The notes beneath the pieces are model-generated. The model was not told the DNA's origin. It made no database searches and saw only the letters and a program-made list of their open reading frames with translations. Below are positions 5,974 to 55,775 of a stretch of DNA of 64,000 nucleotides, piece after piece. A program made the position numbers and the translations under genes. Numbering within the stretch: position 1 is the first letter of the stretch; every line of letters starts with the position of its first letter. Origin of the DNA: Bretschneidera sinensis (lineage: Eukaryota; Streptophyta; Magnoliopsida; Brassicales; Akaniaceae); the NCBI GenBank assembly GCA_023935145.1, contig CM043698.1, positions 36,172,001-36,236,000 of the forward strand, written 5' to 3'.

Positions 5974-6514
5974 GGAGCATATTTGGAATGGGTTTTTAAA
6001 AATTGTTTTCAGTTTTCAAAACTAAAATCAGTTTTTGAAAACTCATTTTTATATTTGGCAAACAGTTTTTAAAAATAATTTTTTAAAACTGTTTTCAAAA
6101 ACTGTTTTCTGGAAGCTTCAAATTGATATTTTCTGATATAATTTTTGAAAAATAGCCCTAAGTCAATGTTCACTTTTCTGTTTCATTCTTCTTCTATGAT
6201 ATATAAAAAATATTACAATTTGGAAAAAAAAAAAGATTACTTATTTTTAAGTATTTAGTAAAAACGAAAAATAAAGTTAATATAGATTTTAAATTTAAAC
6301 TCAAAATTAAAAATAATTACAAGTTGTATCAAAACAGTTTTCAAAATAAGACTATCCAAATAACATTTTATTGTTTTCTGTTTTGGAAATAGTTTTCGAA
6401 TTACAGTTATCCAAACATGTTTTTTTCAAAAAACATCTGAAAACTGTTTTCAGCTTTTATTTTAAAAAACAATCTTCTAAAACTAAAAAAAAAAATTAAT
6501 ACCTAAATATTCTC
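5974..6514. mobile_element. MITE-like element with terminal inverted repeats
   Basis: The left end GGAGCATATTTGGA is imperfectly inverted at the right end (CCTAAATATTCTCT, 6502-6514). The interior is self-complementary, with many GTTTTCAAAA/TTTTGAAAAC words mirrored about the centre, and there is no coding capacity. Size and structure suit a non-autonomous DNA transposon. I could not define the target-site duplication. Confidence 0.6.
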
Positions 6515-12739: not shown

Positions 12740-13031
12740 TGTTAGTATCCGAAATGGTGAGAAGGAAAAGCTGAGAGCAAATGAAGAAAAAGCTGAGAGC
12801 AAATAAAGGAAAAGCTCTGTATATTCCTCAGTGATTTTTGCTGTACATAGTGCCGTGGGAATATATAGAAACAAACTAACCAACTCTGTACTAAGAGTGG
12901 AAACCAGCAACTCTGTGCTAAGAGTGGAAGCCAGCTAATAATATAAAAAGGATTTACAAATAAAATGTAAAATAAGGAAACTAGTGTAATTACAGATTAG
13001 CCTATTTCTTGATTATCTGTATTGTGTAATA
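12740..13031 (-). repeat. 3' LTR of the copia element
   Basis: 292 bp, beginning TGTTAGTATCC and ending TGTAATA in plus orientation. It is 27 bp longer than the partner LTR because the phrase around AACTCTGTACTAAGAGTGGAA is tandemly duplicated here (about 12880-12930). Confidence 0.93.
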
Positions 13032-16000
13032 GCCCCCCACAAGATGGAGAATAGAGGTTGACTATTCCCATCTTGGATAAATGTAACTTAATGATGAAGG
13101 AGGGCAAAGCCTTTGTAAAAATATCAGCTAGTTGGCACTGTGAGGCAACATGAGCTGTGATGATGCGACCCTCTTGGATCTTGTCTCGAATTAAGTGACA
13201 ATCTAACTCGATATGCTTGGTACGTTCGTGAAAGACCGGATTAGCAGCGATGTGGAGTGCGGCTTGGTTGTCACAATAAAGTAAAGTAGCCTGAGGATGT
13301 GGAACCCGAAGATCAAGAAGCAAGTACCTAAGCCAAGTGAGTTCAGAGCATGTGGAAGCCATTGATCGATATTTGGCCTCGGCTGAGGAGCGAGACACCA
13401 CAGATTGTTTCTTGGATTTCCAAGAAATGAGGGAATTGCCAAGAAGTATGCAATACCCAGTAACGGAGCGACGTATATCAGGACACGAGGCCCAATCTGA
13501 ATCACAATAGGCCTTAAGTTGAAGTGGAGATGAGGATGAGAGTAAGATACCCTGTCCAGGTGCTGCCTTGATGTATCAAAGAGTTTTATGAGCTGCAGCC
13601 AAATGTGAAGTCGTGGGATGATCCATAAATTGGCTAAGGAGCTGGACAACATAAGATATGTCAGGCCGAGTGATTGTAAGATACAACAAACGGCCAATAA
13701 GTCTTCTATAGAGGCTTGGGTCTGGTAGTGGATCACCAGAAGATTTGCTGAGCTTAAAATTCTGCTCAAGGGGCAGTTGAAGTGGTTTGCTGCCGAGGGT
13801 CCCTGTGTCAGCCAAGATGTCCAAAGCATATTTTCTTTGACACAAGTGAATACCTTTGGAAGACCTGGCAACTTCCATACCAAGAAAATAGCGCAAACAT
13901 TCAAGATCTTTGATCTTAAATTGAGTGTGAAGAAAAGATTTAAGTGATGCAATGGAAGAAGGACAATTACCAGCCACAATGATATCATCTACGTAAACTA
14001 GTAAGGCAATGAAAGACGAGCCATCTAGTTTAGTAAAGAGACTATAATCAGCTTTAGATTGTTCAAACTCAAAATCAATGAGAGAAGAGGAAAATTTAGA
14101 ATACCATTTTCGGGAGGCTTGTTTAAGTCCATAGAGACTCTTGAGAAGCTTGCATACTTGATTGGGTCCTCATTTGTTATAACCCGGTGGTTTACGCATA
14201 TAAATCTCCTCATGCAAATCACCATGGAGAAATGCGTTGTGAACGTCAAATTGAAGAAGTGACCAGCCTTGTACTGCTGCAACAGATAATAAGACTCTGA
14301 CAGTAACGAGCTTGGTGACTAGGGAAAAGGTCTCTGTATAGTCTATACTTTCTTGTTGTGTGAACCCCTTTGCAACAAGCCTTGCTTTCAACCTGTCTAC
14401 AGAACCATCAGCATAAAACTTACTTTTGTAGATATATTTGCAATCAATTGCCTCTTTTCCAGGAGGTAAATCAGTGATAATCCAAGTTTGGTTCTGTTCT
14501 AAGGCAGACAATTCAGTGTTCATGGCTTGACACCAGCCAGGGTGTTTGACAGCTTGTCTATAGGAGGTAGGGTCAGAAGCAATGGAAATGGAGGTGGAAA
14601 AAGCAGTAAAAGAAGGAGAAAAATTTTGGTAAGTCAGAAAATTAACTAAAGAGCAGTAATTACCAGTAGAGAAAGAAGAAGCCGTGGACAGCAACCGAGA
14701 AGGGCCTGAATGTGAAGTCTTGTTGCAATAGAATTCCTGCAGGTATTGTGGAGCTGTCCTTACCCTTTGTGACCTGCGAAGAGGAGGTTGAGGTGGAGAA
14801 GCTGGTGGAGAAAGTGAGGGATTAGTAGTGAGAGAAAAAGTGGAGGAATTATGTGATGGTGCAACATGTGGTTGAGATGAATCTGGTACAGGTATGGAGG
14901 GTGGGATGGCGATATGGGGAGGAGAAGGGCTGACTTGTGGAGAGGAAGAAATTGTGGGAAAATCAAGTGAGTCCGGTAAAGGTTTAGTAAAAACAAGGGT
15001 GGGGTTCGGAGAAGGAGTGAATGAGGGATGAGGTAAAGATTGAAATGGAAAAATGGACTCAAAAAAAAGTACATCCCGAGAAACAAAGGTGGTTTTGGAC
15101 TCAAGATCAAGCAATTTATAACCTTTAGTTCCAAAAGGATATCCAAGAAAAATGCACATGCGACCTCGGGGATCAAATTTTGCTCTTCCTTGTGAAAGAG
15201 TGGCAGCAAAGCAAAGAGACCCAAAAACCTTTAAATGAGCATAAGTGGGTGGAGATTTAAATAAAAGTTCAAATGGTGTTTTATTTTGAAGAAGATGACT
15301 AGGGGTCTTATTGATGAGGTATGTGGCGGTCAAAACACAATCATTTCAATATTCAAGAGGAATACCAGCTTGTAATTTTAAAGCACGAGCCACATTAAGC
15401 AAATGTTGGTGTTTCCTCTCCACAACTCCATTTTGTTGTGGAGTGGCAACACAACTTGTTTGATGTAGGATCCCTTTTTTATAAAAAAAAAAAAAACTCT
15501 TTCATTTGAAATTCTCCTCCATTATCACTTCTTAGAATTTTGATGGTGAGGTTGAATTGATTTTCAATCATATTGGTAAAAGACTCAATGCTGGTTCGGG
15601 TGGCAGCTTTGTTAGGAAGGAGATACAACCATGTACTCCTAGTGAAGTCATCAACTAAAGTTAAAAAATATTTTGAGCCATCATAAGCAGGAACAGAACA
15701 GGGTCCCCAGAGATCACAGTGCACAATTTCAAATGGGATTGATGTCTTATGTTTGCTATGAGGGAAAGGAAGTCTATGAAATTTTGCCAATGGACAAATG
15801 TAACAAGGCTTTGTATTAGTAGTGGAAATGCTTTTCTTAACAATAGGATCTGTAATCATATTCAAAACAGGAAAAGAAAGATGGCTTAGGCAACAGTGCC
15901 ATAGGTCAGTAACATTTTCAGTATGTGCAACAGAAGCTGTAGCAGATTTCGTAACTGTGGAAAAGTGATAAAGAGTGGTCACCAAGGTAGAGGGAGAGAC

Positions 16001-16951
16001 AGCCATGTTGAGCAGGTGATATAAACCATTCTTCACTTCACCCTTCCCAATCGTTGTCCAAGATAAAAGGTCCTGAATAAGGCAAAAATCGGAGAAAAAA
16101 ACTAGACAACAGGTGAGATTGGCAGCCAACTTCTTGGCTGAAATTAAATTAAAACTAAAGGAAGGAACACATAAGACTTCAGTGAGGTGAAGTGAGGGTG
16201 TTAAGTGAACTGTGCCCTTGTGTCTAACAGGTACATTTGTGCCATTTGGTAACTTAACAGAGTGAGAAACAGGAAAATTAATAGTGGTAAAAAATAAGGT
16301 ACAACAGACCATATGGTCAGTTGCACCGGTATCAATTATCCAAGGAATTTCTTGTGCGAATGAATTATTGTGTGTGCAGGTGGATAAACAATTTGAAATA
16401 CCAGAAATCTGAGGAGTTGACTTAGGAGGAATGATTGATTGAATCTGGTTGGCAGAGGACTGAGCAATGGTGGAGGGCTGCCGTGGTTGGAGTAATGCCA
16501 TTAATTGCTGATATTGGGCCTGAGTAAGACCAACTCGACCATCACTGGAATCCTCAAGGTCAGAGTCAAAAAGAGCAGTTTGAGCAGTAAAAGCATTTGA
16601 ACCCTGAGATTTGTTGAAAAGTTTGTGTCCAGGGGGGTAGCCATGGAGCTTGTAACACTTCCTCATTGTATGTCCAGACATGTTGCAATGAGAACAAATG
16701 GGGGCCTCGGCGTTGCCAACCTTGAAACAAGTTTCAAAAGAGTGTCTTGTGATCTTGCAGTGAGAATAGTAGGCTCGGTCTTTCTTTGATTTTTGTTGGG
16801 ATGGATTACGGGTAGGAAATGGGAATGGTTTGCGAATGCCAAAGGCCATGGAGTCAGATGGTTTTGAAGTGGGGGTCATTTGGTGGTGGCATTCTTGCTG
16901 TTGAATGAGAGAAAAGACTTTTGTGATGGGTGGAAGGGGATCTAAGAGCAT
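12997..16951 (-). pseudogene. Copia pol region: zinc knuckle, protease, integrase, RT, RNase H (broken)
   Basis: Reading down the minus strand: a CCHC knuckle (CSHCNMSGHTMRKC) near 16690-16650; aspartic protease DTGATDHM near 16330; GAG-pre-integrase LWHCCLSHL near 15895; integrase core with HCDLWGP, DDFTRSTW and RSDNGGEF (about 15715-15510); integrase C-terminal [14 protein letters not shown] (about 15240); reverse transcriptase with [11 protein letters not shown] (about 14390) and YVDD (about 13990); RNase H with [12 protein letters not shown] and DIFTKALP (13395-13090). The reading is interrupted near the A-rich run at 15479-15495, near 15340, around 14170, near 13980 and at about 13575, so no functional polyprotein is possible without repair. 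Confidence 0.93.
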
Positions 16952-17023
16952 TATCTGGTCTCAAACAGGGGAATATGTGTCATTTAAACCCATCAAAAAC
17001 TGAAAGACATAGTCCTGTTGGTA

Positions 17024-17542
17024 TCAGTCTGAGAGAGTTTTCATCGATCCACAAGAGCAAACTAAAACGGGGTCATACATAAGTAACTCATCCCAAAGAG
17101 ATTTAAGCCTTCCATAATATACACTTACAGTGTCAGAGTCTTGTTGAAGGCTGGCAAGGGTCTTCTTGAGCTGGTAAATACGAGGTCCATTTTGATGGGA
17201 GAAACGGTCCTGAATATCGAGCCAAAAGTCACGGGCATTGTCTATGAAAGCAACACTAGATCTGATGGAGGGGCTTATAGAGTTTTGAAGCCATGAAACC
17301 ACCATATCGTTGCAGCACTCCCATAAGTCAAGAAGAGGATCATTGGGTTCTGTTGGTTGAGAAATGGAACCAGTGATGAAGCAGATTTTGTTTTTGGCAC
17401 GGAGAGCTCGTCTCATTGCACGGGACCAAGTGGGGTAGTTATCACTGGTAAGCAAGTCGGTGACCAGAATGATGGCAGGGTTGTCGCCGTTGTCCAGCCG
17501 AAATGGGTTGCTAGGGTCGGTGAGGTTCAGGTATTTGGCCAT
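17024..17542 (-). pseudogene. Copia gag region (nonsense-interrupted)
   Basis: Starts MAKYLNLTDPSNPF about 27 bp inside the right LTR. It carries the UBN2-type gag pattern with NYPTWSRAMRRAL and DIQDRFSHQNGPRIYQLK. It lies in the same frame as the pol open frame beginning at 16951, and two TGA codons separate them, consistent with methyl-C decay of a single gag-pol frame. Confidence 0.88.
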
Positions 17543-17556
17543 GTTTGTGAGGCTCT

Positions 17557-17568
17557 GCTCTGATACCA
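17557..17568 (-). other. Copia primer-binding site
   Basis: On the minus strand TGGTATCAGAGC, the usual plant copia match to initiator tRNA-Met, directly adjoining the LTR boundary at 17569. Confidence 0.9.
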
Positions 17569-17833
17569 TGTTAGTATTCGAAATGGTGAGAAGGAAAAGG
17601 TGAGAGCAAATGAAGGAAAAGCTGAGAGCAAATGAAGGAAAAGCTCTGTATATTTCTCAATGATTTTTGCTGTACATAGTGCCGTGGGAATATATAGAAA
17701 CAAACTAACCAACTCTGTACTAAGAGTGGAAGCCAGCTAATAATATAAAAAGGATTTACAAATAAAATGTAAAACAAGGAAACTAGTGTAATTACAGATC
17801 AGTCTATTTCTTGATTATCTGTGTTGTGTAATA
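17569..17833 (-). repeat. 5' LTR of the copia element
   Basis: 265 bp, same ends as the partner (TGTTAG...TGTAATA in plus orientation). The element-orientation 5' end is therefore TATTAC rather than the standard TG dinucleotide, shared by both LTRs. Confidence 0.93.
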
Positions 17834-25122: not shown

Positions 25123-28007
25123 TTATTTCTTAATAAGAAGGACGACGGTGTGAGCTGCAATGCTCCTATTCTCACCAAGGCTATCGACCTTCTCGTGAGT
25201 TTTCGCTTTTAGACTTACAACAGAGGGATCTGCTCCTAGCAGCTCTGACAAACTGGCCCTCATAGCTTCCTTGTGCGGGCTCAGTTTTGGTCTTTGGAGA
25301 ATCAATTTTGTAGCCTGCCTCATGCATGAGTCTCACCTGAAATGAACCGTATCAGACTGGATGATGATAATCTGAAATTCTGAACTGCAAGAACCACTCG
25401 CATTATATCCTCCCATGTTCACAGAAAATAAAATAAAATATGTGGCTAGAAGAAGCAATCCCTTGCACAACTAACTCAACAAGTGATGAAGCATGAGAAT
25501 GAGTGTCCAAAACATTATCTCTAGTAAGAAAGGTCCCTTTATGTTTGATATAATTTGCATGGCATATTGAGATACAATTTCTTTTTTATAAGTGAGATAA
25601 TACATATGTAAGGAGGAATGAGGAATCCCCCAGCTGAAGTAAACTTGAACCCATTACTAATTTCCAAGATGTGAGTTCAGAGGAATTAAGAGACCAGATA
25701 GGCCTCTTCCCTTGAATATAATCAACCGACCTGCTACATCAACACTACCCTTTGTTCCTGTCTACCTGTTTGTTTCACCCTTTGCTCATTTGCTTCTCAT
25801 GGTTCTTTCCTACCAAACTCACACCCAAATTGCAACTCAGCTCAATGAAACTCCATCCTACCAAATTAATTTCACAATTTCACATTCAATTATAGCACCA
25901 ACAGTCACAAGAAAGAAAACTAAAAAATTTGACTACCGAAGGCAGTCATAAGAACATTAGAAACCTATTTGTTTTCTGTCTAATCAACATGATGTATGCA
26001 TTAGATGCCAGGTTTGCCAATTATTCCTCTTCTTCTGTGCATGGTGCATTGTATAAATATCTGGGGAAAACCATATAAGGAATATATATGAACCATCGGC
26101 ACACCCAAAAATAAATTAAGATTATCAACTTAAGACCTTGATTGCTGTGTCCTTCTCATTGACTACAAACTTTCAGAATACAAGCCCTAAGCCTAAGATA
26201 ATTGCACACATGCATTATTGTAAGAAACCGATTGTGATAGGCACATCTATATAGACAACATCACTCATCTTTTGCAGGCTAGATTAGTTAACGAAAGCAT
26301 GATTATAATGTTATAGTATTAGGTTTTCCTTCATTTTACACAATACATATCCTAATTCCCTTTCTAACCCTAATTCCATTCTTTAACTAAGAACAAATAA
26401 AGCTGTCCAGAATAAGGGTTCATTTAACTGTCTGACATAGTCACCACCAGACAGGAAGCTACATAGTTTCCCAGGATTGATATTAAAGCATCCATTGCAC
26501 TTGCTTTATTGGTCCAAAATAACTAAACCTATATTACCTTGTTTTACTCTTGCATGTCGAACAAAAAATTGGATCTTTCATATGAGGCCGTGAGTTTTAT
26601 TTAGCAACCAATTCTCTCACCAAGTTCACTCTCAAGCAAAGGAACCAATAATTAAAAAATGATGATTATCATATAAAAGAACTGTTTTCCATTCCCTATC
26701 CTGAACCAGATGACAGCTCTGAACAAGCACCAGTGTCCAGGCTCAAACCCCAAGAATTCAAACAGTAAGGGTGCGTTGGGTGCGTTTAGTTGTGAAAATT
26801 TTCATCAGCGTTTTCTTTAATATTTTCTTCAATAATTTACATATTTTTAACATAATTTGAAAAATAACACTAATAATTCTAATATAGCAAGAAAAAATGG
26901 TTTTTAAATTTTTCCAATAGTACGTTGGAAAGAACGAAAGAGAAGTGTTGTTTTTCAAATTATGTTAAGAATACCCCAATTGTTGAAGAAAATTGAGATG
27001 GAAAATGGAACAGCTAAACGCACCTAAATAGTCTTCCATTGTGCTTAATGCTTACCAAAGAGTGACCAACCAGGCTTAAACTCAATATAACTATTATTTT
27101 TATAAGAAAACTCAATATAACTATAAAAAGGATCTAATCCATTCTTTATCCCTTCAACAAGAACAATATTTCAAGCTAGCATTTTTCAAAATCTTTAATA
27201 CAGTTTCTACTTTTAAAAAAAATACAGTTTCTAAGCACGGCTCATATCAGAGATGCCCAACATGCACCGATTAGAATTACAAAGGAGTCCCTCAAAGCAC
27301 CCACAAACAAATTTAACAACATAAGCACAAAAACAAAACCAATATATAAAAACCATAATTTTTTTTTTCAAAATGAACATACTACATTAAAGAATTAACA
27401 AGAACAAAGAAACTCACAGCTTCTTTGATAAAAACAGACGATGGTGCTCCCTTCCACTTAGGATCAGAATCTGGAAATATCTGCCCAATATCAGGGAGCC
27501 CTAAAGCACCCAAAATCGCATCAACAACACAATGGAGCAACACATCCCCTGCAACACGAATACCAATACAACTCAAGCCAATGAAAGTAACAATAAAGAA
27601 TAATCTATCAAAAATACAAAAAAAAATAACCATCAGGAATCCAACAAATTACCATCAGAGTGAGCCTCACAGCCTCTATCATGTGGGTTATTGATCCCAC
27701 CAATGATCAAAGGGTAGCCAGGCTCCAACCGGTGGAGATCAAACCCGTGGCCCACACGGAATGGCAAGGACTTGGAGGGTTTGATTGAGGTTGCAGGTTC
27801 ACCGAATTTGATGGAGGTTGTAGCAGCCCAAGCTGAAACAGAAGGCCCTGAGTTAGGTGAAATAGAAGCCGGTGTCCTTACGACGAAACTAGGATGTCTG
27901 GTTGCACAAGTACGAGGGTTTAGAACAGGAGAAAGAGGAGAGAGTGGCTTGTTGGTAATTTTTGTGGTGATTGGAGAATAGGTGCATAAGTGAGTAGCCA
28001 TGGCCAT
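25123..28007 (-). CDS. ISPF: 2-C-methyl-D-erythritol 2,4-cyclodiphosphate synthase, plastid, with exon-3 frameshift
   Basis: MEP-pathway enzyme forming MEcPP, precursor of plastid isoprenoids. Exons (minus): 28007-27653, 27548-27418, 25336-25123. Exon 1 has a Ser/Thr-rich plastid transit peptide (about 60 residues), then [18 protein letters not shown] with the metal-ligand DxH and CEAHSDG. Exon 2 reads [21 protein letters not shown] and [10 protein letters not shown]. Exon 3 enters in phase 0 as [11 protein letters not shown], but the conserved continuation [14 protein letters not shown]...HTVVLLIKK lies in a different frame. The residues normally between (GNLDAT in the family) are missing, consistent with loss of about 20 nt between short TTG-type repeats near 25300. 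As read, exon 3 reaches a stop early, losing the C-terminal third. Either a pseudogenised copy or an assembly error. Family assignment is certain. Confidence 0.92.
26778..27025. mobile_element. MITE in ISPF intron 2
   Basis: Terminal inverted repeats GGTGCGTTTAG (26779) and CTAAACGCACC (27014-27024) bound about 250 bp of AT-rich non-coding DNA. TGCGTTTAG-type ends are common in plant hAT-like MITEs. Target-site duplication not resolved. Confidence 0.65.
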
Positions 28008-34442: not shown

Positions 34443-35003
34443 TGTGATGGAGCCCACAAAACACACATCCAATAAAATGTCTACACGTGGAATCTGACAC
34501 CACCAATTGGACTATGACACGTGTCAAGCCTCCTCAACCTGGCCAAGCACACGTGGAATGGGCAGCTCACACAACCTCCACGTCAGGGCGTGATTAACGC
34601 GCCTAACTCCCTCTAGAGCACGTGACCCCCTGGCACACTCAACACTCTGAACACGCGATTAAGATTTATCTCTGAAGCTCAGAATCGCAGGAGCATGGCC
34701 ATACCTCCCCCACGTGCGCGGCCTCCACTCAGAGGACTACAAATATCCTGAGGTACGCGAGTCTAAGGGGAAGATTTTTTTTGGATATTCACAATTATCT
34801 ATTTGCACTTAAGCCGTTTTAGATTTAATCCTCGGCCTCGACCCCCTCTCAAGCCCTCGTTCTAACTTAAGCATTGGAGCACCCTCAGAGGTCTCCTCCT
34901 CCCCTCCTTCCGAGGATTTTAGTTCACCTCTGTTACCTGTGCAGGGCCAAGGCCACATCAGCACCAAGGCCACGTCAGCAGTAGCAATTTTTCGGCATCA
35001 ACA
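34443..35003 (+). repeat. 5' LTR of the non-autonomous element
   Basis: 561 bp, TG...CA ends. U3 carries repeated ACGT cores (CACGTGG, GACACGTGTC, CCACGTCA, GCACGTGA, CCACGTGC). The TATA-like ACAAATATCC (about 34739) is degraded compared with the 3' copy. Confidence 0.93.
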
Positions 35004-35004
35004 G

Positions 35005-35023
35005 ATTGGCGCTGTCTTTGGGA
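35005..35023 (+). other. Primer-binding site of the non-autonomous LTR element
   Basis: ATTGGCGCTGTCTTTGGGA starts two bases after the LTR end and resembles the TTGGCGCC-type primer site common in plant gypsy elements. Confidence 0.8.
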
Positions 35024-35127
35024 AATCACCATCTCTCGCTAAATAGTAGAAGTGAAGAAATCTAAAGAACTCATCTGTTGCAATGCCAAGCCATCCGACA
35101 CCATGTTGCACACTTTGGAGTTTCGGG

Positions 35128-45966: not shown

Positions 45967-48900
45967 ATGATGGCCGCTCCTGAAGCCCCTCTCCGCTATG
46001 TCGGCATCCCCCGTGAATCCGCTGCTTTCCGCCTCATGAAACAAATGGTTCTCTCCCTCTTTCTATCTCTCCATATATAAGTATATGTTTGTGTATCTGT
46101 AACTATAATGGTGTGTTTGGACTTTGGATTTGTTTTAGGGGTGGGAAGAAGGAGAAGGTCTTGGGAAGGATAAGCAAGGGATCAAAGGATACGTTAGAGT
46201 AAAAAACAAACAGGACACTACTGGTTTCTTTCTTCTTGCACTCTCTTATTTTTACCTTTTTGGTGATTTAGGTTAAACACTTTGCTTGGTTGCTAAGAAA
46301 GAGTTAGGAAAAAGGAAAACGTGTTGAAATTTTGAATTATGGAGAAGTAGGGATTGTGGTTAAAAAAAGATAGGCATTTTAATCAAGCTAATTGAGGTTA
46401 CATAGAATTTCAATTGTTTTTTTTTTCTGTTTGCCATTGCCTTGGTTTTATTGGCTAAAGCGTTTAGTTAATTTTACTGTTTTTTTAAAAAATAAATTTG
46501 GAACAGGTGTTGGTCTAGACAAGCCAAATCCTTGGGCATTTGATACAGCTCAGTTTGATAGTATCCTCAAAAGATTAAAAGTGGTAAAGTCCATACTTTT
46601 TTCTCCTGATCTTTGATGAATTATAGTAATTATGCTATTCCCAACAAGGGATTAATGTCCAATTTTTTTTCTCTGGTGTGATTTTCAGCAAGCTGTGCAG
46701 AACACTGATGAAGGTAGAAAACGTGATGACCTTATTTCAATATTGCTCGTTATTTACTTATTTTGCTACATATAGTCTAAAGAATGTCGTATTTGTTCTA
46801 ACAGTTGTTGAGAAGAGCAATGCTCAAGATGAAACCGAGATTGATGCTTCTAATGATGTTCAAGATCCAGTTGTTAAGGCTACTCGACCACAAGGAAGGT
46901 TGGGGCAATTATATATGATTTGGGGTTTTGTTTTTTCAAATGCCCAAGAGGCAATTGTTTTGCTGATGCTCGATTTTTGTATTTTTTTTGGTTATTAGAT
47001 ATAAGAGAAGAGAGAGAGGGAAGCTTGTCCATGCATATTCTTCAAAGGATCTCGAAGGAATTCTTGTAAGTTCCAAACATAGTCAATATCCTCATTCACT
47101 GTCCGTAATTCAACATCGTATTCGAAGAGGTACCTGACCACTATCATAGTTGATGGTCTAGGCAACCCAAGAGGGGTGAATTGGATTTTTGAATTTCTTT
47201 TGAATTTAATTAGATAATTAATCAATCAATCAAAATGCACAATTTAGGCAACTCAAACAACAAAGATTAAATTGCAAAAATTAAAAGAGAGATAGGGAGG
47301 AGGAGTGTGTAAACATATTTATAGAGTAAACGCGTGTTGCTTAAACTGGTTACAAGAGATCAAGATAACTTTTCTCACCCAAAACTATATTGCATTTCTT
47401 TTACACTATGAATAGAATAGAATACAAATGAGAGGGGAATAGAATGATTGCAGCTCAAAGATTTCTCTCTCACCAATTTCTTGAATCAAGAATGGGTAAA
47501 AACAATTGAAAAGCTTAAGAACACTTTTGAGCTTTTTAGAATTGTTCAAGATGATCTTAAAACTCAAATTGGCTTGGAATTTATAGCTTTAATCTCAAAG
47601 AGCCTTTGAAATTTAATTTAGGAATGAATTGGCTCAAAATCTTTTTCGTTTAAATCAAAAAGTAGTTATACGTTGTGGTCTGGTTGATTGGCCTTACGCA
47701 GATTTGAAAAAAATGTTGATTTCGTGCATCCAGTTGACTGACCAAAGCCCGGGTCGACTGTGAGGAGGTCCTGCCTGATTCTATTTTTCAGGCCTTGACC
47801 TCCAATCGACTGGGTTCTTTGAAATCTGATTTTTTTTACTTAAATTTCTTTGGTTTTAAATCTTAGTTTAAGTAAATCAATTTTCAAAATGATTTTTGAG
47901 CTATCAAATGAATAAAGTACTTGAGAGAATAGTTCCATTACGCTTATTATAACTTCAAGTTTTCTCTTCATTCTTGTTCTTGGATAATTTTCATGCTTGT
48001 TTGGTGTGAATTTGCTGTGAGACTTATGAGCTTGAAACACACTTAGCAAACACATTAGTATAACAGTTTTGTTATCATCAAAATCAAATTGGGATTAACA
48101 ATCTCCTTTTTTTGACGATGACAAAACCATTGGCTAATAAAGACATTGCAAAAACTGAGTGTTTGGTTTTTTAAGAAAATTTTGAGCGAGTCTCCACTAG
48201 GACTTTTCCTCCATCAATTCAAAGCAATTTAATATATCCAACCAAGCACATATATCCAAACATCTCAAATCTACTTTTTAATATTGATGATTCACCTCTT
48301 TAAGGTTATGCATCTAGCTTTGTGCTTCTTTCTATCTTTCCCCTTTTTCTATGTTTTTAAGCAAATAATGCATATCATGTTATCAAAGCATCCACATCTT
48401 TTTAGTGATCATAAGCATGCTTAAATTTTAGAACTTTTTTCTTTTGCAATTGGAAACCAATCTACCAATGTAATTTGAAAACCATGAGCTTAAGTGCATA
48501 CCTTAGCTTTTTAATTAACGGCATGGTTTGCATTAAATTATATTGATAGATTGATTTTCCATTGCAAGAGAAATTTCTTTTTAAAATTTAAGGAATTGAT
48601 ATTTATGCTTATGATTGCTAAAAGTATGTGGATACTTCGATAACATGATATGCATTTTTTAAGCAAATAACACATCATATTATCAAAGCATCCTCATATT
48701 TTTAGCAATCATAAACATGCTTAAATTTAGAACTTTTTCCTTCTTCATTTGGAAACCAATCTACCAATATAATTTGAATGCAAACCATGAGCTTAAGTGC
48801 ATATCTTAGCCTTTAAATTAATGGCATGGTTTGGATTCAAATTTGATAGATTGGTTTTCCACTGTAGTAGAAACAAGTATTAAAAGTTAAGCAATTTATA

Positions 48901-51900
48901 TTTATGCTTATGATTGCTAAAAATATGTGGATGTTTTGATAACATGATATGCATTATTTTCTTAAAAACCTATTAAAAAAGGGAGAGATAGATGGAGCAC
49001 AAAGCTAGATGCATGACCTTATAGAGTGAAGCATCAATAATAAAAAGTAGATTCGAGATGCTTGGATATATATGTGTTTGGTTGGATATATTAAATTGCA
49101 GAGAAAAGTGCTAAAAATGGAGGAGACTTTGTCGAATTTTCCTTATAAAATTAACACTTGGTTTTTGCTATGTTTTTATTAGCCATTGGTTTTGTCATGT
49201 CATCGTCAAAAAAGGAAAGATTGTTAATCCCCAAATTCACAACAAATAAGCATGAGAATCATCTAGGAAGAAAGATGAAGAGAAGACTCGAATACGTTTG
49301 TCCATTAAATTAAATTTACCTTTTGCCCTATTGGCACTCAACCTCGTAAGACGCGAGTGAAGGTTGAGGTAGGTGTTCAATTTCCCATGTGCTTGTCATG
49401 ATGTGTGTTAAATTGTAAAGCAAAATGAAAAGAGAAAAGGTAAATGAACTTCCAATGAGTAAAGAGTAATAGTAGTATGTAGTCGTTATCTTAACCACTT
49501 AATGTAATTGTGTTCTAATTCATATAAAGACTGGATGCGACATTTTAAGTCCATTTTGAACAAGTTTGATCACTGGTTATTTACTATGGCAAGCTGTACT
49601 GTAGGTTAAAAAAACGGAGGAGTCGCCACATATAAGTCCTAATTTAGATGGCATATTGGAGACTGCAGAGGCCTCGGAAAGTCAAGATTTTTATGCTGAA
49701 GGTAATAATACTGCTAGATAGAAAACAGTAATATTCTCACAGTATGTTGCACTTTCTGGTAATCTTGTTTTGCTCTAAACATCTATCTTGTCACTTGGCA
49801 AAGGAAGATCAAACATAAGTGGCATTAAGTGCTTGCAGTTTTTCTCTACTTATGAATTCTCCAGTATTGCACAAACTATGAAATGCTTTTAATGCTTGTG
49901 ATATTATATGGTTGCTTCATCTACTCTCTGTTTTCAATATCTACTGTTAAAGCTGTTTCTTATGGTAACTTGCTTCATATATCAACTCTTTTGACATTTA
50001 AACGTGTGTTTTGTTCATTTAAAATGTATGAGCTTGATATATATTGTTGGTCCATTTCCAATCATCTTAAGCTTTTGGGATCAGTGGTAGTTAACATGGT
50101 AGCAGAACCAAGTGTTCGAATCTTGGTAACTCCCGCTTGTCTTTGTTTATGTTGTTTATGGGCCTAGCATGTGGGAGGGAGTGTTAAAATGTATATGAGC
50201 TTGATATAAATTATTGGCCCATTTCCTATTAGTTTAAGCTTTTGGATCAATGGTAGTTAACATGTTCGTTTGTGTATAAATGGTATCTGTTGATGTGCAC
50301 ATTGCATTGTTGACTAGGTCTCGTGTGTTGCTGAAATAGTTTGAAAATGTGAAATTGATTGTTACTGGAATAACTTTAGCACATTGGGACAGGAACCAGA
50401 GTTGAAGATATTTCTCCAGAGTGGTGGGGCTTTAAACTTGGGTTTGTTTCGGGAGGTTTTCTTGGCGCACAATCTACTAGAAATAAATTACTTAAAACTG
50501 GAGATCCTCAAGATGGTAACGAGAGAAGAGTATTTTGTGAAGACGATCAAGAAAATCTTTACAAACTTGTCCAAGTATGTATTGTCTTAATTCTTTCTTG
50601 CAAACTTGTTATATGCCTAGTTTCCTTAGTAATATGCATGTGGAAGGGAAATTTTTGCAAGTCTCTGACTGGGAATTTCATGTTATTAATCTTTTTTTTT
50701 TGCTTTATTTCTATCAATATTTCATATAATTAAGTGAATAAGTGGTGTGTAGTGGCATAACTGACATTTTAGTTGATAACGGTACGTCTTTTAAGGTGAT
50801 TGTCGACAAAACTACTATGAGAAGTTGATGGTGTTGTAGTGGGGAGTAACACAATGGACATGAATTGTTTAGTGTGCCTTTTTGACTCTTGAATTTTTCA
50901 GGATAAATCCACGACAGGGAAGCAAGGACTGGGCATTAAGGGCCAGCCAAAGAAAATAGCAGGTGTCCGCTTTCAGGGACAAAAGACATCTTTTGGCGAT
51001 AGTAGTGATGAGGATTCTGCCGATGTTGATTCCTCGTCAAAACGAAAATGTGATGTCGCATTTGAAATGGAAAAGATTGACGAACCAAAAGTGAAATTGA
51101 AAAAACTATGTAAACAACTTCTTCATCAGGTGCGTCGCCCATCATTGCAACAGCTTAAAACTGCTTATAATTTCCTGTATTATTTTTCTTATAGACTGCG
51201 TATTTCAGGTACAAAACTGCTTATAATTTCCTGTATTATTTTTCTTATAGACTGCGTATTTCAGGTACCTGGAGAGTCACTAAAGCTGAAACAGCTTAAA
51301 ACTCTTATTGATGAACATGCATCCTCAGTTTTCTCAGAGTTCTCTTCCAAAAGAGATGCTCTTGGTTACTTGAAACGTAAGGTATGGATGTCTAGCTTCT
51401 GGGTATCAGTTTTGCAGCTTAGATATGATTTAATAATCCTCTAAGGCAACAACATTATTATTCAGGGTAAATTATAACTACATTCCTCATATTTGGCCTT
51501 AAATACAATTACATCCCAAGTTTTCACATGCTATTCTCCTCCCCCCAAAAGAACTCATATAAAATTCGAAATGCATCCCATATTGTTTATAAACATTAGA
51601 AAATCTAACAAAATCAAGTTAAATGATGACATAACATCACATGTTTTTTTATTTAATTCAAGAAGTAATCCATACGTGAGGTTCCAACGAGTTTTAATAA
51701 AGGCAATTTCTATGATTTCAGCTAACATTCTTAGAGTGGGATGCGATTGTCCTTTTTTGAAAACTTTAGCTGTAATTGTATTTATTGTCAAACCTTAGGG
51801 ATGTAGTTATAATCTACTTATTATTATTTAACTTTTTCCTTGGGGAAATAACAATTGTTTATTGGTGAGGAGGAGTAAGCGGTCTAGATACATGTCATGT

Positions 51901-52069
51901 TTGAATCTGAAGATACATCATGTTTTTTATATATATAATGAATTAATTTTTCTTGCTATTTTTGCCAATGTAAGTCTGTTGTCAATTATTTTTCTGGTTG
52001 CAGCTGGAAGGAAGTGAGAAGTTCTATGTGGAGGGAAAGAGAGTTAGTCTCCAATCAAAGAGAGGCTGA
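45967..52069 (+). CDS. G-patch (D111) domain protein
   Basis: Eleven exons: 45967-46047, 46139-46223, 46507-46583, 46689-46713, 46805-46898, 46999-47065, 49605-49701, 50393-50574, 50902-51129, 51265-51381, 52004-52069 (TGA); phases close and give 372 aa. The G-patch is at about residues 20-70: AFRLMKQM, then [35 protein letters not shown]. This module binds and activates DEAH RNA helicases, so a nuclear or nucleolar RNA-processing role is likely. Further on: [20 protein letters not shown], a central [20 protein letters not shown] block, [12 protein letters not shown], then a charged tail with Lys-rich stretches. It appears orthologous to the G-patch gene I recall as At1g63980, adjacent to SPO11-2, as here. 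The second ATG, at 45970, is an equally good start. Introns 6, 7 and 9 are altered by repeats. The open frame at 50384 reads the exon in the wrong phase. Confidence 0.92.
48086..49237. mobile_element. Large fold-back (inverted repeat) element in G-patch intron 6
   Basis: Arms of about 270-300 bp: the left starts AAATTGGGATTAACAATC, the right ends GATTGTTAATCCCCAAATT, with long matched interior such as TTTGACGATGACAAAACCA and CATGCATCTAGCTTTGTGC on opposite strands. The centre holds a further motif that alternates direct and inverted four times (words CATATCATGTTATCAAAGCA and its complement near 48380, 48640, 48670, 48940). The TTTTGACGATGACAAAACC phrase resembles a plant LTR segment, so it may have arisen from two head-to-head LTR fragments. 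Confidence 0.75.
50017..50262 (+). mobile_element. TRIM (terminal-repeat retrotransposon in miniature) in G-patch intron 7
   Basis: 246 bp in all. LTR1 50017-50096 and LTR2 50182-50262 (about 80 bp each, ending GGTAGTTAACA). The interior starts with a primer-site-like TGGTAGCAGAACC and a GTTCGAATCTTGG phrase and ends with polypurine GGGAGGGAG. Target-site duplication TGTTC at 50012-50016 and 50263-50267. No coding capacity. Confidence 0.85.
51157..51268 (+). repeat. Perfect 56-bp tandem duplication spanning a splice acceptor
   Basis: Copies 51157-51212 and 51213-51268 are identical to the base and each contains a T-rich tract and TATTTCAGGTAC. The second copy supplies the acceptor for exon 51265. 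Use of the first AG (51209) would add 56 nt and an immediate in-frame TAA. Confidence 0.95.
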
Positions 52070-52765
52070 ACATTTTGTCAGAATTTTGATACGCCTGTAA
52101 CAGTCTGTATATGGCAGCTGAGACGGGATTTAAATTAGATTAAATAGATCAAGCATTCATTGGAATTGTCATAGTGATCAGTTTGCAATTTTATCGGTCA
52201 TTGCAATCTGTTTGTGTTATTTGATAAGGTCTGTATCGCAAATAAATACAGGGATATGATTTTGGTGTTAAGAGATATAATGAACAGGATTAGAAAAATG
52301 AAACAGGAGGCTTTCCAATTCACAATCAACTTTCTTGTGCTCGTGACTAAGTAGTGCTTGCAATATATATTTGTTTTGACAATCAATTTTCTTAAGTTAT
52401 TATTCCTGTTTTCTATCTACTTACAATCCTCTTCACCCACCCTTTTATTTTACAAATGTTATGCTCATTTGCAACCTACTGATTACAGATTTTTTCAAGT
52501 ATTAGATGTAATTTGCTTGTATAACTTTCTTTGCTATGTATTTTACCAAATAATCATCTGTGGCAAACAGAGCTTCGATTTCTGCTCTGACCACTCTGGA
52601 CCATTAATGCCAACTCTTCTCTGTAGCTAACCTGTTAATCAACCGTTGTTCAAGATTCTAATTTACTATGGTTGAAGTTAATTCAAGATTGAATCAGTCG
52701 CCTCACAAAGATGTGAAAAATGGGACAAAAGAGAGTCCATGATATTGAGGTGCTCGTTACCATAC
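52070..52765. other. Spacer between G-patch 3' end and SPO11-2 remnant
   Basis: G-patch 3' UTR and AT-rich sequence. I looked for the final SPO11-2 exon (ending GKYI-type in orthologs) on the minus strand here and did not find it. Confidence 0.55.
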
Positions 52766-54681
52766 CTGCAAGACATCTGAGGACATCAAACTCTTAGCAA
52801 TTTGCAGGTCCTGTGCCTTTAACGGAACTAAGGATTGTTCAGGTATCAGATGTAGATCATCCCCTGGAAGTCTCATCCACTTCACATTGCAAGATGAATG
52901 GTATGAACATTTAACACTGGTCATTTTCAATCCAGCTGTATGCCCGTAAGAAGAAAATGACCAATGTTAAATGTTCATACCATTCATCTTGCAATGTGAA
53001 GTGGATGAGACTTCGAGGGGATGATCTACATTTTCAATCCAGCTGCCGCACCCATTTTCTTCTTACGGGCATGACTAACCTCTCCTCTACTAAAATGCTT
53101 ACAATAAAACAAATTAAAGGCATCTCATGGACCACCTATAAGCAAAAATCTCTCACTAAATCGATCAATAATCTCTACCATTTAATAACATTTTTTTTAT
53201 TCAAATAACAACTTAAATTTTCACCCACATTAAATAAAAGAAAGAAGACTACGCCACAAGATTATTGTAACAGGGAAGCAGGACTCAAACAAGAAAAGGC
53301 AAAAACTGCTTGCGCACAGCTTAATGTTGGTGTCAAAAGCGGCAATACATTGAACATCATCTGATCAAATAGCGCAAATACATCTAAGATCCATTAGGTA
53401 ATATTGAAGCTTATCAGCTAGCAACAGTTCCAAGAAAGGAGTTTTTAATTTACTCTGATCTGCTGAATTCGAGCTTATAACATAAGGTATAACCTGAAGT
53501 GCAATTTAAAAAATGGAAATGCGGAAAGAGATCAGTTAATTTGCCTGCAGCAATAGCCGCCCTGCAAGAAGTCCCCTTCTAGATGCCATGATTCCAAGAC
53601 TGCACCGGCTGCAACGGAGTAATGCTACAACATCTATGGCACGAATACTTCTTTTTTCTAAGTTCTCTTATGGTTGAAACAAACATAGGAGATCCAAGTA
53701 AAATGCGCTTAGTTGAAAATACAAAATAAAGTACTAATGAGAAAATCAACCTTGGATTATCCTGTTGACCTCCAATTGAGACGAGAAATACTCCAGCGAG
53801 TCACAAAGCAACTTGTAAAAGAGCTCCCTCTGCGTCACTCGCTTCTCTTGAAGCAGAATTTTAAAGCATATTTCCATTACCTTCCACACTACATTTTCTC
53901 AAAAGGAAGGGAAGAAAAGAACGTTGAACACAATATAAACATTTCATGAAGAATAAGAAAGCGAAACAAATGTGAACAATACCTCAAACAAAGGCTTTAG
54001 CTGCGTTTGCTCTCATCAAGGACCGTGTACAAAAGGAACGAGAAAGTAAAACCAACGAAACATCTGTCAACAGCCCCTTACTCGGCTGTTACTCGACTTT
54101 CTATTTATCTGCAAACCGATTATACACTTGTTTTAGTCTTATGTTATGTTTGGTTACCGAGAAAATCCAAAAAAAAAAGTTTGAGTAGAAAGGAACTGCA
54201 GGTAATTTAGCGTGATATATAACTATTTGCCTTCAGATATAAATTAGTACTACATGTTTATTAATATGAAAGAAATCAAGAAATAGTTAATATATGAAAT
54301 TCAAACTAATTGCATAGCCACAAGGTCAGAATCAATTGTTTACACATAATCACCATTTTCAGCACTAATCAAAAGTAGGTGATAATTTGATGAGAAATGA
54401 AAAGACATAAACTGATAGTTACCAGAGGGAGATCATAGATTGCAGGATCTGGAGAGTTCAATATATTGATGAAATTGAGCACCGCAACCTCAATTCTAGC
54501 CCGAGCCTGAATCGAACCAAAATTTTCAACTGAATCCAAAAATCAAAATTAAAATAAAGGGAAATAAAAATATGCTATCGGAGATGAGTTTTGATAAGGT
54601 TACCTCATGAGGAGGGAGAATATCAGCGTAGCAGAGACGTTGATCGGAGAAGAACTTCATTGATTTGCAGAGATTTTCCAT
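52766..54681 (-). pseudogene. SPO11-2: Meiotic recombination protein SPO11-2, truncated pseudogene
   Basis: SPO11-2 is the topoisomerase VI A-like subunit that makes meiotic double-strand breaks. Recognisable exons (minus): 54681-54604 (MENLCKSMKFFSDQRLCYAD), 54506-54423 (ARARIEVAVLNF, LNSPDPAIYDLPL), 54108-53983, 53888-53751 (VWKVMEICFKILLQEKRVTQ, then RELFYKLLCD), 53633-53545 (DVVALLRCSRCSLGIMASRR), and a detached C-terminal piece 52930-52766 (CNVKWMRLPGDDLHLIPE). Lesions: exon 3 has a frameshift and an in-frame TGA; its last codon, expected AGA, reads TGA; the donor after 53545 is GC; the exons encoding most of the Toprim domain are absent; the final exon is absent. It keeps the position next to the G-patch gene seen in Arabidopsis, so this is the ancestral locus, now dead. 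Codons still look protein-like, so decay is recent. Confidence 0.92.
52850..53031. repeat. Near-perfect 78-bp inverted repeat (hairpin) from a SPO11-2 exon
   Basis: Left arm 52850-52927 and right arm 52954-53031 pair at 76 of 78 positions around a 26-nt loop. The left arm reads the SPO11-2 exon on the minus strand (RLPGDDL); the right arm reads the same exon on the plus strand and keeps the conserved RLRGDDL. Transcription through it would make a long dsRNA stem. Confidence 0.93.
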
Positions 54682-55775
54682 TTCTTGTGTTTTGTTGCAG
54701 TGATTTAGAGAAATTAGGAGAGACTTTTGGTTTCGAGAGGGATTGGCGCGCTAGCGGACTGTGAAATTTGAATGATGTTGCCAATGAAACTGGACGGAGA
54801 TGTTGAGATGGGCTTTAGACGAGTAAAAGCCCAATAGTCCCATAGTGTAGCCTTCAATACCCCTCTGCATCACTATGGGCCTTATTATTTTTCTCTTCGT
54901 TTTTTAGTTCTCTTGTACTAATTAAAATAATTGGATAGTGTTTTATAAAATATAAATCACTATTTCTTTTATAGGATAAAATTATTCGCTAACTTTGCTC
55001 AATTAATATATACTTTCGTTATGTTTAATTTTTTGGAATTGAAATTAAAATGAAATTATAGTCATCTTTAATAGTTTTTATGTTGAAAAAAATATAATTC
55101 TATCTCAATTTCAATTCCAGATAACCAAATATAACATATATTTCTATGCAATCATTGAATTCAACAGTTCATTTAACGACCTAATACTTTATAGGATAAT
55201 TTTTTAGTGAACTCGTGAGTTAAACACTTGAGCTTTTAACCGTTGGACCAATTGTTAGATACAGATGGAACAATTGGAAAATCGATTGCATTTTGCATTT
55301 TGAATTTTTTTTTGGTAAATGAGATGAAACGAAGTAAAACTTGGTTAACCCCATACTGCATACCAAATACTTTAATTTATAATTAATTTTATTGAATCGA
55401 ATAATTTAGAGATTGTGATAATTGTCATTAGACTTATATCACATTTTAAAATAAGAGACATCGATTTGAAAAACAGTTTTGAAAACCTTTTTGATCTTCG
55501 ATAAATAAAATGTTTGACGAAACGATACCTAAATACAATCTAATTCTTTTGAAATTAATTTTCTCTAGCAGTTTGAATTGGGTTGTTAAAAACCTAGCTA
55601 ATGGATGGAAAATATCAATTCATTCACCAAACTTTTCAAAGTTATATAATCTTAGCGAGAAGCTGTATCCAGCGGAAAATATTGAACAAAAATCAAAGGG
55701 AGACTTCAAAAAACTCGGTTTCTTGTATTTTTGTACTTCATGATAGTGAAATTGTCATTCCGCGTGCGGTACAGT

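Follow-up and report, generated by a model that had tools for sequence, protein, structure and literature searches.

A decayed copy of the meiotic gene SPO11-2 contains a near-perfect hairpin, which is very probably filler DNA laid down by template-switching repair in a decaying duplicate and most likely has no function. The copy lies in the stretch of DNA analysed here, 64 kb in length, which we refer to as the window. This reading draws mainly on the comparison with an intact-looking SPO11-2 gene on another contig of the same genome, referred to below as C7. The positions of the relevant features are listed in Table 1.

Table 1. Positions in the window of the SPO11-2 pseudogene, its neighbour and the parts of the hairpin and filler
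Feature	Position	Strand	Description
SPO11-2 pseudogene	52502–54681 (runs 54681 to 52502)	minus	exons 1–5, 10 and 11 kept; exons 6–9 (residues 175–295) missing; from tblastn and exon-by-exon comparison with C7
Exon 11 remnant	52502–52631	minus	130 nt versus 135 in C7; 5 nt missing, frame broken
G-patch/PINX1-like gene, 3' part	50380–52069	plus	adjoins SPO11-2 tail to tail, both here and on C7
Left arm	52850–52928	minus	original copy, collinear with C7; 44 nt of exon 10 (52850–52893) and 35 nt of intron 9 (52894–52928)
Loop	52929–52952		24 nt; most likely original intron 9; aligns to C7 across a 4-nt gap and several mismatches, well only at its last bases
Right arm (F1)	52953–53031	plus	inverted copy of 52850–52928; still LRGDDL
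Filler	52960–53068		109 nt; replaces 717 bp of C7 (C7:14694036–14694752, containing exons 6–9)
F2	53029–53045	plus	direct copy of 52922–52938, 17/17
F3	53043–53072	minus	inverted copy of 52940–52959 (20/20) plus 10 nt of intron 9

The hairpin and its stability

An inverted-repeat search of the window returned two 79-nt arms that are complementary at 77 of 79 positions (97%) and are spaced by 24 nt. This is the same object that a first-pass annotation, made from the sequence of the window, had described as 76 of 78 paired positions around a 26-nt loop. Of the 11 inverted pairs reported in the window (arms of at least 40 nt, spacing of at most 2000 nt), no other has arms as long or as complementary. 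In 14 C7 loci (135 kb), each searched separately, four inverted pairs with arms of at least 50 nt and spacing of at most 400 nt were reported, none of them more than 84% complementary.

Folding of the transcript had been suggested in the first-pass annotation, and the segment 52830–53050 indeed folds far below its shuffles on both strands. The minimum was −144.2 kcal/mol on the plus strand (z −19.4) and −147.4 kcal/mol on the minus strand (z −23.4), with 0 of 200 shuffles as good in either case, whereas the corresponding C7 stretch, folded as a control, gave a z of −0.86, with 40 of 200 shuffles as good. Given these z-scores and the rarity of such a pair among the other inverted pairs, the hairpin is real and lies beyond chance. 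Its long paired stem, formed within one strand, is of the kind that characterizes plant MIRNA and hairpin-siRNA loci. Scans of the window against Rfam, at gathering thresholds, and for tRNAs gave no match, and neither did Pfam on the two short arm reading frames at E 0.1, as expected from fragments.

The host gene is a SPO11-2 pseudogene

Using five SPO11-2 proteins as tblastn queries against the minus strand, we found residues 1–174 at 54681–53545 and residues ~292–382 at 52906–52505, and nothing convincing was found with these queries between the two matched parts. The start at residue 292 is slightly early, as it includes intron bases and exon 10 starts in codon 296; one query (P0003) extended to residue 270, at low identity, across arm and loop. 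The joined pseudogene exons, read through their lesions, gave 501 protein matches. PF21180 and PF04406 are present in all 120 of the matches listed, many of which are named SPO11-2, and the read-through query itself matched PF04406 at 1.6e-15.

Exon 3 carries a 4-nt deletion and a change of R98 to a stop codon, the donor after exon 5 is GC rather than GT, the 3' splice site of exon 10 has been lost through a change from CAG, as in C7, to CAT, and the LRGDDL motif in the left arm now reads LPGDDL. The pseudogene departs from 8 conserved residues, counted with the intron-derived positions 292, 294, 295 and 296 left out; a leave-one-out control over the 120 homologs gave 1.07 such departures on average and at most 5. 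A functional SPO11-2 would have an unbroken frame and all conserved parts; here exons 6–9 are absent, a stop stands at codon 98 and the frame is shifted. The SPO11-2 copy in the window is dead.

An intact-looking sister gene in a duplicated segment

When the arm DNA was used as a query against its own genome (1.21 Gb in 550 contigs, counts being lower bounds), it matched at itself, at the other arm and at C7:14693927–14694015 (88%). The arms are 88–89% identical to C7, with a 5-nt gap. The SPO11-2 gene at this place, on the minus strand of C7, has 11 exons and ten GT-AG introns and encodes 382 aa without a break. It departs from its homologs at 2 of the 148 columns that are conserved in at least 97% of them, and the closest proteins among the 120 homologs listed are 85–86% identical (Pterospermum, Xanthoceras, Dipteronia and others). 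The intact SPO11-2 paralog that the first-pass annotation had supposed thus has an intact-looking representative in the same genome.

The C7 comparison likewise bears out the earlier proposal that the arms go back to a fragment of SPO11-2 duplicated in inverted orientation. Their assignment to the exon that carries LRGDDL holds for 44 of the 79 nt, which belong to exon 10, and fails for the other 35, which are the end of intron 9; the boundary was placed by aligning the arms with the spliced C7 gene. A MITE or another transposon hairpin has virtually no chance of being the source: other MITE-type inverted repeats do occur in the window, but the arms are SPO11-2 sequence and the genome query, with counts as lower bounds, matched only the two arms and C7.

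The similarity between the two regions extends well beyond the gene. Aligned blocks along most of the window are collinear with C7:14.631–14.751 Mb. The exceptions are a few short blocks that are out of order (such as 6029–6369 and 34986–35088), a repeat-rich stretch at ~47.4–49.3 kb, and the interval 32.8–45.9 kb with only two short aligned blocks. A pseudogene of a duplicated segment is expected to keep the gene order of the intact copy, and this order is seen in the mostly collinear blocks and the shared G-patch neighbour. From the block order that they share, we conclude that the window and the C7 region are, on sequence grounds, two copies of one duplicated segment.

Outside the masked exons, 317 of 2653 aligned sites differ between the window and C7, and the four exons that were compared singly differ by 5–7%. 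The lower divergence in exons indicates that, for some of the period, the coding parts were under constraint. A comparison of 252 codons between the pseudogene and the C7 gene gave 16 synonymous differences; a further 27 codons are changed, the stop being one of these. The slices for exons 3 and 11 in this comparison also took in 4 and 9 bases of intron, and these were left unpaired.

Probable filler DNA at the site of a deletion

The window tracks C7 up to position 52959 (C7:14694035), weakly within the loop, and resumes at 53069 from C7:14694753. In the distal flank, ~60 nt from 53069 align well, 53129–53237 poorly, and the following sequence well again, so that the loop, with its 4-nt gap and several mismatches, and the stretch 53129–53237 are the weakly aligned parts of the parse. 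Between the two flanks, we could assign three templated pieces along the plus strand, 79 nt inverted, 17 nt direct and 30 nt inverted. The 10 extra nucleotides of F3 match C7 at 7 of 10 positions, and their direct-orientation version survives only in C7, having been lost from the window. An origin of the loop and F2 from exon 9, with which they share 11 nt, was set aside, as the C7 alignment places the loop in intron 9.

Each of the four junctions shows an overlap. The first, GAAAATG (7 nt, 52953–52959), is common to F1 and the preceding stretch, and the other three are CAT between F1 and F2, CTG between F2 and F3, and GCAT between F3 and the distal flank (3, 3 and 4 nt). Random joins simulated in the C7 gene had a mean overlap of 0.72 nt, and a four-join total of at least 17 occurred in 6 per million draws; the null covers random joins, and the parse itself, chosen by the analyst, stands outside it. 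Filler DNA is recognized by a deletion relative to an unbroken copy, an insert drawn from near the break and microhomology at the junctions. In the window, the deletion amounts to 717 bp of C7, all three sources lie within 52850–52959 and the following 10 nt, that is, within ~110 nt of the junction, and the microhomologies measure 7, 3, 3 and 4 nt.

Order of mutations in the two arms

Compared with C7, both arms carry CAT instead of CAG at the 3' splice site of exon 10, a G303R codon and the 5-nt gap in the intron part. Among the 120 listed homologs, all those that cover residue 303 have G at this position. The arms differ from each other by one change each: in the left arm, CGA has become CCA, with loss of R305, and the right arm has one change in its intron part. 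At each of these two sites, one arm agrees with C7. As the splice-site loss and the G303 codon change are common to both arms, they would predate the inversion, with C7 taken as ancestral, and the source of the inverted copy was, by this comparison, already broken before the inversion took place. The ancestral state is inferred here from one other copy, C7, and the 5-nt gap in the arms cannot be polarised. The divergence between the arms, 2/79, is 0.20 of the divergence between the segments, with a wide range of 0.02–0.75.

These differences also bear on the authenticity of the hairpin. Near-identical inverted copies are a familiar form of artefact. We regard a fold-back arising in sequencing or assembly as extremely improbable here: of the 79 sites, 2 distinguish the arms, with one arm agreeing with C7 at each, two more templated pieces and a deletion are found at the same place, and a simple fold-back read would not regain the far flank. 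This reading was rejected, as was that of a MITE.

A proposed repair-based origin

The origin that we propose would begin with the duplication of the segment, whole-genome or regional, after which the C7 SPO11-2 would have been retained while the window copy decayed. A break in the decaying copy would then have removed ~717 bp, including exons 6–9. During rejoining, a DNA end would have primed on short nearby matches, copying 79 nt backwards, 17 nt forwards and 30 nt backwards, and the copied end would have been joined to the far side of the break. The 79-nt inverted piece, placed 24 nt from its own template, would thereby form the hairpin, and any double-stranded RNA made from it would be incidental. 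We infer that all four joins arose in one event, and that the machinery was either polymerase theta end joining or a replication template switch. At 79 nt, the inverted piece is longer than is usual in inserts made by polymerase theta, and this speaks for a replication-type switch.

Related processes are known. PMC10923293 reports repair deletions in Arabidopsis with templated inserts and junction microhomology, explained by repeated microhomology priming. The scar in the window resembles the plant filler DNA and theta-mediated end joining described there in its deletion, its insert from the nearby flank and its junction microhomology, and differs in that it is a spontaneous evolutionary event and that its 79-nt piece forms a stable hairpin. 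Template switch mutations have been reported to create RNA hairpins in mammalian microRNAs and rRNA (Monttinen and Loytynoja 2022, PMC8794818). As in those cases, a single event sets a reverse-complement copy next to its template and yields a near-perfect stem; unlike them, the present case involves several switches and a 717-bp deletion, lies in a plant pseudogene and is known from DNA alone.

The intact C7 sister makes the individual steps readable, namely the deletion, the three templated pieces, the four microhomologies and a partial order of mutations. The locus offers a clean example from nature: when a break in a decaying duplicate is repaired, the product can be a near-perfect hairpin directed at the gene that was retained. 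Most likely, the hairpin is a well-preserved repair scar, a new and clear case of a mutation type already known, and its capacity to give double-stranded RNA is incidental.

Potential for small-RNA production

The inverted-duplication model of new plant small-RNA genes, as presented in PMC3237417, does not settle by what route the inverted copy arises. The hairpin resembles the MIRNA origin proposed by Allen et al. (cited in PMC3237417) in that part of a protein gene is inverted and an intact relative is a potential target. It differs from that origin in that no 21-nt stretch of it matches the intact coding sequence exactly, in being partly intronic and in being read, so far, from DNA only.

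The match to the potential target was quantified with the 21-mers of the hairpin (n = 324; 162 positions on both strands). None is exact in the C7 coding sequence, where 8 match with one mismatch and 29 with two. Uninterrupted identity extends over 20 nt at most, and the best of 300 shuffled 21-mers still had 6 mismatches. The claim in the first-pass annotation that the double-stranded RNA would be "perfectly matched" to SPO11-2 does not stand, given 0 of 324 exact 21-mers, arms that are 88–89% identical to C7 and 35 of 79 nt that are intron. The siRNAs from the arms, if made, could act through imperfect pairing, with one or two mismatches. Within the stem, one of the two arm changes is unpaired on both strands and the other is a mismatch on the plus strand but pairs as G-U on the minus strand; neither is compensated.

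Transcription of a young hairpin-siRNA or proto-MIRNA locus would start from what is left of the SPO11-2 promoter or read through from the G-patch gene, and the RNA would be diced and act on the C7 SPO11-2. We consider this distinctly unlikely. It would fit the near-perfect 79-bp stem on either strand, the intact-looking paralog on C7, the 37 of 324 21-mers that come within two mismatches of the coding sequence when the shuffled minimum is 6, and the G-U pair that one arm change keeps on the minus strand, but not the failure of every 21-mer to match exactly, the intronic share of the arms or the two uncompensated changes. Also in its favour, a block that is 84% identical to C7 covers the ~250 bp that precede the start codon, and rice pseudogenes have been reported as sources of siRNAs (PMC2708354). 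Against it, meiosis in Arabidopsis and other plants is reported to require SPO11-2, and the spo11-2-3 mutant is sterile (PMC8430568). Strong silencing of the retained copy, the only other one found with the arm DNA query, would therefore be costly. Moreover, the anatomy of the hairpin is accounted for by filler DNA at a deletion in a damaged copy.

A more specific version, in which the repair accident turned the dead copy, still under a meiotic promoter, into a silencer of its C7 partner, with siRNAs of one or two mismatches trimming the SPO11-2 dose, appears very unlikely. If true, the dead copy would lower the amount of SPO11-2 in just those cells that form the breaks. A search for literature on SPO11-2 with a hairpin or inverted repeat found none among the matches listed, which is no proof of absence. 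Under the repair-based origin that we favour, it is possible that the hairpin marks the start of a small-RNA locus, and, though probably silent, it is a good test case for whether newborn hairpins give rise to small RNAs at all.

Other differences between the window and C7

Several further differences were noted between the window and the C7 region. A stretch of ~5.1 kb at 12741–17833 does not align to C7; it contains minus-strand reading frames, which resemble those of a Copia-type retrotransposon, and a 22-nt tandem unit is shared near both of its ends (12761 and 17590). Similarly, ~258 bp at 26769–27026 do not align to C7 and contain an inverted repeat with 50-nt arms that are 86% complementary, a MITE-like insertion in the window copy. 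At 48118–49198, inverted and direct repeats are nested, and the related C7 sequence has a different order and orientation. At the point that corresponds to the gap 54929–55470, upstream of its SPO11-2, C7 has ~27 kb of extra DNA.

In the neighbouring G-patch gene, a perfect 56-bp tandem duplication (51157–51268) spans the end of an intron and its splice acceptor, giving two 3' splice sites that lie 56 nt apart. A 26-nt probe from the start of this duplication has one match, with 1 mismatch, in the C7 locus L004.
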